64,000 bases of DNA. Origin: Pseudomonadota bacterium. Its GTDB lineage: Bacteria; Pseudomonadota; Gammaproteobacteria; Acidiferrobacterales; Acidiferrobacteraceae. This document shows positions 7,501 to 9,955 of this stretch, piece by piece (position 1 is the first letter of the stretch; every line of letters starts with the position of its first letter). The position numbers and the translations under genes were made by a program. The stretch covers positions 220,351 to 284,350 of the forward strand of contig JAJYGP010000025.1 of NCBI GenBank assembly GCA_021785035.1, written 5' to 3'. The notes under the pieces are model-generated. The model had not been told where the DNA came from, did not search any database, and worked only from the letters and a program-made list of their open reading frames with translations.

Positions 7501-8091
7501 ATGCGCAAAAAATTGAAGGAAGGGGTACGCTGTGTGCTCATGCTGTCGGGAGCCGTGCTGGCGTTCCCGTTTGTCGCTTTGACCAAGCTTGATCGCTGGG
7601 TTGACGAACGAGACGCCCTCTTTATCTTGAGTGCTCAGGCGCTTGCCGGACTGCCCGGGGTCATCGGAAACGCGGCCCGGGCGGCCTACTACGAACGGAC
7701 GCTCGCGCTTTTTGAGAAGGGGGCGGTCATCAGCTTCGGTAGTTATTTTTCGAAGCGCGGCGCGCGCGTCTTCGCTCATGCCGGGATCGGCGCCTATTGT
7801 ATTATTGGTCTTGCCGATGTGGGCACCCATGCCCGGATAGCAAGTCGCGTGTCGATTACCTCGGGCTTACACTACCATGGCGGGGCAGGAGGCTTAAGCG
7901 ATAAGGATTGCGTGGAAAGGGTGTCGATCGGCGCCTATGCCTGGATCGGGGAGGGTGCCGTGATCGGGGCCGACATCGGCGCCCATAGTATTGTCGGCAT
8001 GGGTTCGGTCGTAGTCCAAGCGGTTCCCGAGGGGGTCACAGTCCTCGGGAATCCGGCGCGCCGGATTCCCCCGATAGCGCACTCCGCTTAG
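7501..8091 (+). CDS. Left-handed beta-helix (hexapeptide) acyltransferase
   Basis: ATG 7501 begins two bases after the upstream stop and gives 196 residues; the ORF-track start at 7360 lies inside the previous gene. An N-terminal hydrophobic or amphipathic segment (CVLMLSGAVLAFPFVAL) precedes hexapeptide repeats (VFAHAGIGAYCIIGLADVG, IGAYAWIGEGAVIGADIGAHS) and the typical NPAR.I end of the family. A candidate catalytic His is in SGLHYHGG. Such enzymes acetylate sugars or amino groups using acyl-CoA. The stop overlaps the convergent rpoH stop (TTAG at 8088-8091). Confidence 0.75.
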   Translation: MRKKLKEGVRCVLMLSGAVLAFPFVALTKLDRWVDERDALFILSAQALAGLPGVIGNAARAAYYERTLALFEKGAVISFGSYFSKRGARVFAHAGIGAYCIIGLADVGTHARIASRVSITSGLHYHGGAGGLSDKDCVERVSIGAYAWIGEGAVIGADIGAHSIVGMGSVVVQAVPEGVTVLGNPARRIPPIAHSA

Positions 8092-8957
8092 GCAGGCTCG
8101 GGAAGTTGGAGCACGCCTTTCATGGTATCAAGCGCCTTTTTCTCTATCTGCCGAATGCGTTCGGCGGACACCCCGTACTCCTCGGCGAGTTCGTGCAGCG
8201 TTGGCTTCTCGGTAGCAAGCCACCGTCTGCGGATAATGTCGCGGCTGCGATCGTCGAGAGACACCAGAGCGGAGCGCAGTAAGTCTTGTTGCGTGGTCTC
8301 GGCATCGGCATGGGTCAGCAGGGTTTCGGGGTTGTAGCGCATGTCTTGAAGATAGCCGGCGGGAGACGCCCGGAACTCCTCGTCGTCGGTGTCGTCTTGC
8401 GCGTCGAAGGGGATGTCGGCGCTGGCCATGCGCGACTCCATCTCCTTGACCGTCTCGGTGGGCACATCGAGGTCGGCTGCCAGTCCTTCGATCTCGCTTT
8501 CGTTCATCCAGCCGATACGCGCCCGCGACTGACGCAGATTGAAGAAGAGTTTGCGCTGCGCCTTGGTCGTGGCCACCTTCACGATGCGCCAATTGCGCAG
8601 GATGTAATCGTAGATCTCGGCGCGAATCCAGTGGATAGCGAACGAGACGAGGCGAACCCCGTGCGCTGGGTCAAAATGCTTGACCGCCTTCATAAGCCCG
8701 ATATTACCCTCTTGTATGAGGTCCGCTTGCGGTAGGCCATAGCCAGCAAAGGCCCGGGCTACGCGAATGACGTAACGGAGTTGGGACAAGACAAGTTGGC
8801 GCGCCGCCTCGAGATTGTCGTGCTCGCGGTACTCAATGGCCAGCAGACGCTCCTGTTCGGCATCCAGGACGGGTGCCGCGTGGGCGAGCCGCATATAATG
8901 GGAAAGCCCGCCCTCGGCGCGCAGATTCACAGCAACTGGCAAGGTGTGTGTCGTCAT
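8088..8957 (-). CDS. rpoH: RNA polymerase sigma-32 factor RpoH
   Basis: A protein of 289 residues that directs transcription of heat-shock genes. Region 2 (QADLIQEGNIGLMKAVKHFDP, then FAIHWIRAEIYDYI) is intact, and the RpoH box QRKLFFNLR, which separates RpoH from other sigma factors, is present. Region 4 has the helix-turn-helix TLHELAEEYGVSAERIRQIE. The ATG at 8957 follows GAGGGG. It is last in the conserved ftsY-ftsE-ftsX-rpoH series, but the 104-base gap and a CIRCE operator on its own promoter show separate control. The end overlaps the convergent acyltransferase by four bases. Confidence 0.96.
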   Translation of the reverse strand: MTTHTLPVAVNLRAEGGLSHYMRLAHAAPVLDAEQERLLAIEYREHDNLEAARQLVLSQLRYVIRVARAFAGYGLPQADLIQEGNIGLMKAVKHFDPAHGVRLVSFAIHWIRAEIYDYILRNWRIVKVATTKAQRKLFFNLRQSRARIGWMNESEIEGLAADLDVPTETVKEMESRMASADIPFDAQDDTDDEEFRASPAGYLQDMRYNPETLLTHADAETTQQDLLRSALVSLDDRSRDIIRRRWLATEKPTLHELAEEYGVSAERIRQIEKKALDTMKGVLQLPEPA

Positions 8958-8990
8958 CTTCTTACCCCTCGACTGTCCATATCGAATGCC

Positions 8991-9020
8991 ATTTTAGCAT
9001 TCTCGTCGTGAGAGTGCTAA
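8991..9020 (-). promoter_or_regulatory. rpoH promoter overlapped by a CIRCE operator (HrcA site)
   Basis: TTAGCATTC (8994-9002), nine bases, then GAGTGCTAA (9012-9020). This matches the CIRCE consensus TTAGCACTC-N9-GAGTGCTAA with one mismatch. On the minus strand the element contains a sigma-70-like promoter: TTAGCA, 18 bases, TAAAAT (-10 at 8991-8996), about 35 bases upstream of the rpoH ATG. CIRCE is the operator of the repressor HrcA, so HrcA would block polymerase at this promoter. No hrcA gene lies in the window. Confidence 0.88.
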
Positions 9021-9061
9021 TCCTTCTAAAAGTTCCCGATCTTCTCCAGGAGCGGGGCTGT

Positions 9062-9955
9062 TTACTGAACGCTTTGGCGCAGTTGGCGCCCAACCGCCCA
9101 CCGCGCCCCGATCCAGCCCAGGATGGTCCCTATGACAACAAGTTTAAGGGCATCCCCTCCCCCTATCCCTGTAAGTGAGTACTTGCTCGCGTAAAGATGA
9201 GCGAGGTTGTGGACGGGGTCATGCAGGAGGAGTAAGGAGAGCTCCAAAAGGATGAGGGCGCAGACGCCCCCTAGGCCCCCGAGGAGTGCCCCGGTGTACA
9301 GGAAAGGCCGGCGGATAAAGGCGTCCGTGCCCCCCACGAGGCGGATCACGTCGATCTCGGTCGCACGATTTACCACCGCGACCCGGGTCGTGTTCCCTAA
9401 AATAAGAATCAGCGCAAATCCCAGGAGAGCGCCCAGGATCATCACCAGCCGATGTCCTAAGGCAAGTGCTGCGTCTAGCCGTTCGAGCCAAGCGAGGTTC
9501 GACTGAACGTGAGCGACGCCGGCCTCGGTTCTGAGGGCTGCCACAAGCGCTGTGAGGGCCTGGGGGCTACTCGGTGTGCGGATGACGACGACACCTGGAA
9601 GCGGGTTCTCGTGGAGGGCGGTGAGCGTACGGCCGAACCCCGATTGCTGCTCAAACTCCCGTAACCCTTGTCGCGGAGAGATGTAGCGGACCGATTGGAC
9701 CCCGGGAAGTCGTCTCATCGCGGCCACGGCCGCTTGACCAGATGCCCCGCGGTGGAGATAGACCGAAAGCGCACCGCCCCGATCCCAGCTATGACTTAGT
9801 TGTTTCAGGTTCAAAAGTCCGACATAAAGTCCGGCCGGTAGGGCAAGGGTCACGCCGATCATAGCGATGGTCAGAAAGGATGCGCCCGGATGGCGTATGA
9901 GGTCTCCGAGGGTTGCCAGGAACACCTGGATGTGGCGAGCGAAATAGGCTTTCAT
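9062..9955 (-). CDS. ftsX: Cell division protein FtsX
   Basis: A protein of 297 residues, the membrane partner of FtsE. Together they act at the septum and signal to cell-wall hydrolases. Four transmembrane segments fit the family: one near residues 25-48 (ASFLTIAMIGVTLALPAGLYV), one at about 170-192 (RLVMILGALLGFALILIL), and two near the C-terminus. Between the first two is the periplasmic domain (SVYLHRGASGQAAVAAMRRL through RYISPRQGLREFEQQSGFG). It overlaps ftsE by four bases (ATGA). Confidence 0.95.
   Translation of the reverse strand: MKAYFARHIQVFLATLGDLIRHPGASFLTIAMIGVTLALPAGLYVGLLNLKQLSHSWDRGGALSVYLHRGASGQAAVAAMRRLPGVQSVRYISPRQGLREFEQQSGFGRTLTALHENPLPGVVVIRTPSSPQALTALVAALRTEAGVAHVQSNLAWLERLDAALALGHRLVMILGALLGFALILILGNTTRVAVVNRATEIDVIRLVGGTDAFIRRPFLYTGALLGGLGGVCALILLELSLLLLHDPVHNLAHLYASKYSLTGIGGGDALKLVVIGTILGWIGARWAVGRQLRQSVQ

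Follow-up and report, generated by a model that had tools for sequence, protein, structure and literature searches.

The heat-shock sigma factor gene rpoH of this gammaproteobacterium is preceded by a CIRCE element that is very probably (we put the probability at roughly 0.84) a functional HrcA operator and part of one composite control site, in which two rpoH promoters, one of sigma-E type and one of sigma-70 type, would overlap the operator. From the sequence elements described below, we infer HrcA binding, promoter use and GroE dependence at this locus. The following features, numbered along the window (the whole 64-kb stretch of DNA that was analysed), make up the site and its surroundings.

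8088..8957, minus strand: rpoH, encoding sigma-32 (289 aa), with the RpoH-box stretch QRKLFFNLR
8964..8969, minus strand: probable Shine-Dalgarno sequence AGGGGT of rpoH, assigned from sequence
8991..8999, minus strand: extended -10 element TGCTAAAAT of sigma-70 type, the TGCTAA part of which belongs to CIRCE arm 2
8994..9020, minus strand: CIRCE element (predicted HrcA operator), reading TTAGCACTC-TCACGACGA-GAATGCTAA in the rpoH direction, with 1 mismatch
9009..9013, minus strand: sigma-E-type -10 element TCTCA (TCnnA), composed of TC from the end of CIRCE arm 1 and spacer bases 1-3
9015..9020, minus strand: -35-like TTAGCA, which forms the outer end of CIRCE arm 1 and is separated from TAAAAT by 18 bp
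9030..9036, minus strand: sigma-E-type -35 box GGAACTT, identified by alignment of upstream regions, at a fixed distance to CIRCE
9062..9955, minus strand: ftsX, the upstream neighbour, with its stop 41 bp ahead of CIRCE

A predicted HrcA operator ahead of rpoH

The gene downstream of the site had been taken for rpoH, and its product indeed scores above the cut-off of the RpoH equivalog model TIGR02392 (370.9 bits against 323.1), with ftsX and ftsE both lying upstream. The CIRCE element sits in the 104-bp gap between ftsX and rpoH, and the rpoH start codon follows 36 bases further on. On the plus strand, positions 8994-9020 read TTAGCATTC-TCGTCGTGA-GAGTGCTAA, which differs from the CIRCE consensus TTAGCACTC-N9-GAGTGCTAA at one base, as the preliminary description had stated; its extent of 8991-9020 holds for the operator only as far as 8994-9020, the remaining 3 bases belonging to the -10 element. 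This is the sole match at up to 3 mismatches within the window, and no match arose in 100 shuffles. The probability that the palindrome arose by chance is negligible, given this result and the conservation of the site at the same place in nearly all relatives.

The genome encodes HrcA in an intact ORF of 349 aa (PF01628, 227.7 bits, E 1.5e-67), so the predicted operator has a candidate repressor, the absence of which would have spoken against the earlier proposal. Only three CIRCE matches (up to 3 mismatches) were found in the whole genome, ahead of rpoH, groES(L) and hrcA. A look for CIRCE at groESL had been proposed as a check; hrcA is preceded by one as well. The two additional sites are located as follows.

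L003, 1501-1527: groES CIRCE, followed by the groES ORF at 1586-1918
L001: hrcA CIRCE, about 16 bases ahead of the hrcA start, with a grpE-like ORF after hrcA

At L001 (165-1169), hrcA on the plus strand diverges from a nadK-like gene on the minus strand with the hrcA CIRCE in between, so HrcA might also affect nadK.

Conservation in the order and class

To place the site in a wider context, we compared rpoH upstream regions in relatives, as the preliminary description had proposed, and the site proved to be conserved. Within the order we located 30 rpoH loci, counting that of the genome studied here, and all but one of them (29 of 30) are preceded by CIRCE. Nearly all relatives carry 2-4 CIRCE sites per genome, mostly three. 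We also examined a class sample of 100 rpoH upstream regions, drawn from one genome per family where possible. Among these, 78 of 83 genomes with hrcA had CIRCE at rpoH (up to 3 mismatches) compared with 3 of 17 without detected hrcA (Fisher p 1.5e-10), in a sample that leans towards closer homologues of this RpoH because its 100 regions are those of the highest-scoring rpoH matches. Among the genomes that have the site but no detected hrcA, G110 holds a perfect CIRCE elsewhere and probably lacks hrcA through an assembly gap, and G095 and G210, from one family, have degenerate CIRCE sites only. G060, which has hrcA and no site at the sampled rpoH, carries a CIRCE at its second rpoH. These comparisons overturn the earlier expectation that control of rpoH by HrcA would be unusual among gammaproteobacteria: a predicted HrcA operator at rpoH is the usual arrangement in class members that bear hrcA. 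The E. coli rpoH promoter, which has no CIRCE, therefore looks like an exception.

Taking the first base of CIRCE as position 1, the 17 rpoH upstream regions of the family (own included) show little or no variation at positions 1-12 and 17-30. Positions 13-16, in the spacer, are variable, and conservation drops straight after position 30. The conserved block of positions 1-12 plus 17-30 thus corresponds to the predicted operator and promoter parts combined. The single mismatch (window position 9000, CIRCE position 21, in the GAATGCTAA arm) is fixed in 17 of 17 family rpoH loci (the window and L006-L021) and was not seen in the remaining order members sampled. Variants elsewhere (L110 of G192, L114 of G040, GACTGCTAA arms) have C7 changed to G in arm 1 and G21 changed to C or T in arm 2; that of G192 is symmetric (TTAGCAGTC...GACTGCTAA). 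Such C7/G21 variants could reflect a shift in HrcA specificity.

In the family of G092, the composite site seems to have another target. There, an intact CIRCE, with GAACTT spaced from it as at rpoH, precedes a clpB-like gene (L314, 1370-1396; G092:C8:47869-47895), and the rpoH site is missing. We considered whether this extra site marked a second rpoH and rejected the idea, as the gene behind it is clpB.

An alternative is that the palindrome is a relic or forms a hairpin at the RNA level, in a transcript reading through from ftsX into rpoH, with rpoH under an mRNA thermosensor like that of E. coli. CIRCE can influence mRNA stability in Bacillus, and read-through from ftsYEX is possible because a sequence scan found no intrinsic terminator between ftsX and rpoH. 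However, the site follows the presence of hrcA across the class, which a hairpin would not, and a start site 7 bases past TAAAAT would leave CIRCE outside the rpoH transcript. The rpoH leader plus the first 230 nt was not predicted to fold more stably overall than its shuffled versions (z 0.93), and there was no match in Rfam; neither of these two analyses gave a thermosensor signal. We regard this alternative as very improbable. A genus-conserved rpoH 5' leader was also considered and dropped, as it is absent in the sister genus.

Two predicted promoters interlocked with the operator

The preliminary description had suggested that CIRCE covers a plausible -10 and -35. An independent promoter scan of 8900-9120 returned TTAGCA-N18-TAAAAT, with TG ahead of the -10, running from 9020 to 8991 as the sole sigma-70-like site (shuffle mean 0.1). 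TTAGCA matches TTGACA at 4 of 6 positions and is weak on its own. The extended -10 TGCTAAAAT consists of the end of CIRCE arm 2 and the three bases that follow it. The third base past CIRCE is T in 73 of 81 rpoH sites compared with 5 of 40 hrcA or groES sites (p 2e-17). In this order, the groES CIRCE is preceded by a TATGAT-like element, whereas the rpoH CIRCE itself contains -10 elements.

The second predicted promoter is of sigma-E type. The sigma-E -10 consensus is TCnnA, and the 16-bp spacer between GGAACTT and TCTCA gives a pattern that fits a sigma-E rpoH promoter. In E. coli, GGAACTT is an RpoE target and rpoH P3 is RpoE-dependent (PMC8103513). The genome studied here encodes a true RpoE equivalog (TIGR02939, 312.9 bits, above the curated cut-off), followed by a probable rseA ORF recognized by eye. 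Directly ahead of rpoE lies GAACCT-N16-TCACT (L163, 1439-1466), possibly an autoregulatory sigma-E promoter.

Across genomes, GAAC occurs 14-16 bases ahead of CIRCE at 27 of the 29 rpoH sites in the order and at 61 of the 81 in the class sample, compared with 0 of 40 CIRCEs at hrcA or groES (p 2e-17). The spacing between -35 and -10 is 16 in 69 of 89 sites and 17 in 16 of 89, and at 57 of 81 rpoH sites the full sigma-E pattern is present with its TC coinciding with CIRCE positions 8-9. In the 100 rpoH upstream regions of 300 bp each, GAACNN-N15-17-TCnnA had 79 matches on the forward strand and 2 on the reverse strand. About one-fifth of the CIRCE-rpoH sites of the class have no recognizable sigma-E box. 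Seven further class sites show a second arrangement, in which the sigma-E -10 lies 8-10 bases ahead of CIRCE; here (class sample L063-L162; for example, G195, G069, G081, G185 and G089) the sigma-E-like promoter is located approximately 15 bp further upstream, and its -10 ends just ahead of CIRCE, which would place the start site, rather than the -10, under the operator.

HrcA could repress rpoH without GGAACTT...TCnnA being a sigma-E promoter, the extended -10 promoter alone being used. Consistent with this, the TC of TCnnA is supplied by CIRCE itself, 15 of 27 hrcA CIRCEs likewise carry an A as the third spacer base and the sigma-E pattern is not enriched in this genome (G000), with 5 matches compared with 5 in the reversed control. 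As the genome-wide pattern showed no excess over that control, we set it aside as evidence, and the sigma-E claim is therefore based on comparison across genomes. That comparison argues against the extended -10 promoter acting alone: the GAAC box keeps its fixed distance of 15-16 bases from rpoH CIRCEs and is absent from all 40 control CIRCEs, and GAACTT lies 33 bp from TAAAAT, too distant to be its -35. Furthermore, the geometry is identical to that of E. coli P3, and hrcA-less genomes that have no CIRCE keep the box, again with TCnnA at 15-16. We consider this alternative unlikely and favour a sigma-E-type promoter interlocked with the operator, a structure that gives no support to the earlier view of sigma-E and HrcA control as alternatives to each other.

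Loss of hrcA or of the operator

The genomes that have lost hrcA or the operator show which parts persist. In the hrcA-less G211 and G097, GAACTT...GCACTC...GCTAAAAT is intact with TCnnA in place, such that the -35, the -10 and the extended -10 are kept, but the palindrome is broken, with one base missing between the arms; neither genome has a CIRCE (up to 3 mismatches) anywhere. In G174, G176, G032 and G172, likewise hrcA-less, GAACTT-N15/16-TCnnA is kept and CIRCE is absent. A member of the order, G020 (L032), retains hrcA and one remaining CIRCE; its rpoH CIRCE has decayed and the sigma-E-like GGAACTT-N16-TCAGA is retained, a natural uncoupling of the HrcA operator from the sigma-E-like rpoH promoter. 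Given the decayed site, we had expected G020 to be hrcA-less, wrongly, as hrcA was found.

Distribution of the composite site

A scan for GAACTT-N6-13-CIRCE across a genome collection covering 84,980 species yielded at least 118 matches. In at least 73 of the 80 that were classified, rpoH lies directly behind the site, and in one more (L214) the locus ends before the next gene. Although spacings of 6-13 were permitted, 49 of these 80 classified matches (of at least 118) have a spacing of 9 and 15 a spacing of 10. The matches listed come almost exclusively from beta- and gammaproteobacteria. In a phylum-wide sample, 7 composite matches were found, all in the same class as the source and none in other classes. 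One contig labelled Verrucomicrobia (L175) has the composite site at an rpoH that resembles those of proteobacteria, and is probably mis-binned.

Discussion

HrcA activity depends on GroE in the bacteria studied, so rpoH would be released on titration of the chaperonin. In the mechanism that we propose, HrcA dimers, which GroEL/ES would maintain in active form, would bind at 8994-9020, occlude both -10 regions and exclude polymerase. Titration of GroE by heat or misfolded protein would cause HrcA to dissociate, and rpoH, groESL and hrcA-grpE would be derepressed together. Envelope stress would contribute sigma-E, boosting rpoH transcription. As HrcA would block both the sigma-E and the sigma-70 promoter of rpoH, chaperone status would gate sigma-32 synthesis, and transcription of the sigma-32 gene would rise only when chaperone capacity is exhausted. 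Control of sigma-32 activity at the protein level may continue alongside, because the RpoH box is present. The preliminary description had placed a repressor circuit on top of the sigma-32 circuit; the sequence elements, hrcA and the conservation of the site agree with that proposal, which was nevertheless incomplete in that it missed the sigma-E promoter apparently built into the same site.

A CIRCE upstream of rpoH was predicted in Geobacter sulfurreducens by Rodionov et al. 2004 (PMC545781). As here, the HrcA operator lies directly ahead of rpoH in that species, with further sites at groESL and hrcA-grpE-dnaKJ. Ueki and Lovley reportedly followed with bench work. Unlike the site described here, which is class-wide and interlocked with predicted sigma-E and extended -10 elements, the Geobacter case is a single deltaproteobacterial one, with no sigma-E element reported in or beside the operator. 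The regulons of Bacillus subtilis and other bacteria with HrcA and CIRCE share the operator consensus, the repressor family and the groESL and hrcA targets with this genome, but the site described here belongs to a gene for a sigma factor, whereas the B. subtilis regulon comprises groESL and hrcA-grpE-dnaK. In the open-access literature, of which our coverage was partial, CIRCE ahead of rpoH was reported only in this Geobacter prediction, and we came across no description of the composite promoter.

The closest parallel to the sigma-E half of the site is E. coli rpoH P3, where GAACTT-N16-TCTGA (TCnnA) follows ftsX upstream of rpoH with identical spacing. E. coli differs in having neither CIRCE nor hrcA (it was not among the control genomes with an hrcA match); here, by contrast, the sigma-E -10 forms part of the predicted HrcA operator. 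We are inclined to think, with some reserve, that the composite sigma-E/HrcA promoter is ancestral for rpoH in Gammaproteobacteria (betaproteobacteria included), and that the E. coli combination of sigma-E and an mRNA thermosensor is what remained after loss of HrcA, with P3 as a remnant. The site also offers an evolutionary case in which a repressor is lost, its operator decays and the embedded promoter persists.

The textbook account of sigma-32 control is based on E. coli, an organism that lacks HrcA. If the composite site operates in most HrcA-bearing gammaproteobacteria, these bacteria would integrate the status of their cytoplasmic chaperones and envelope stress at one 45-bp site, and models of the heat-shock network in many environmental and host-associated bacteria would change.
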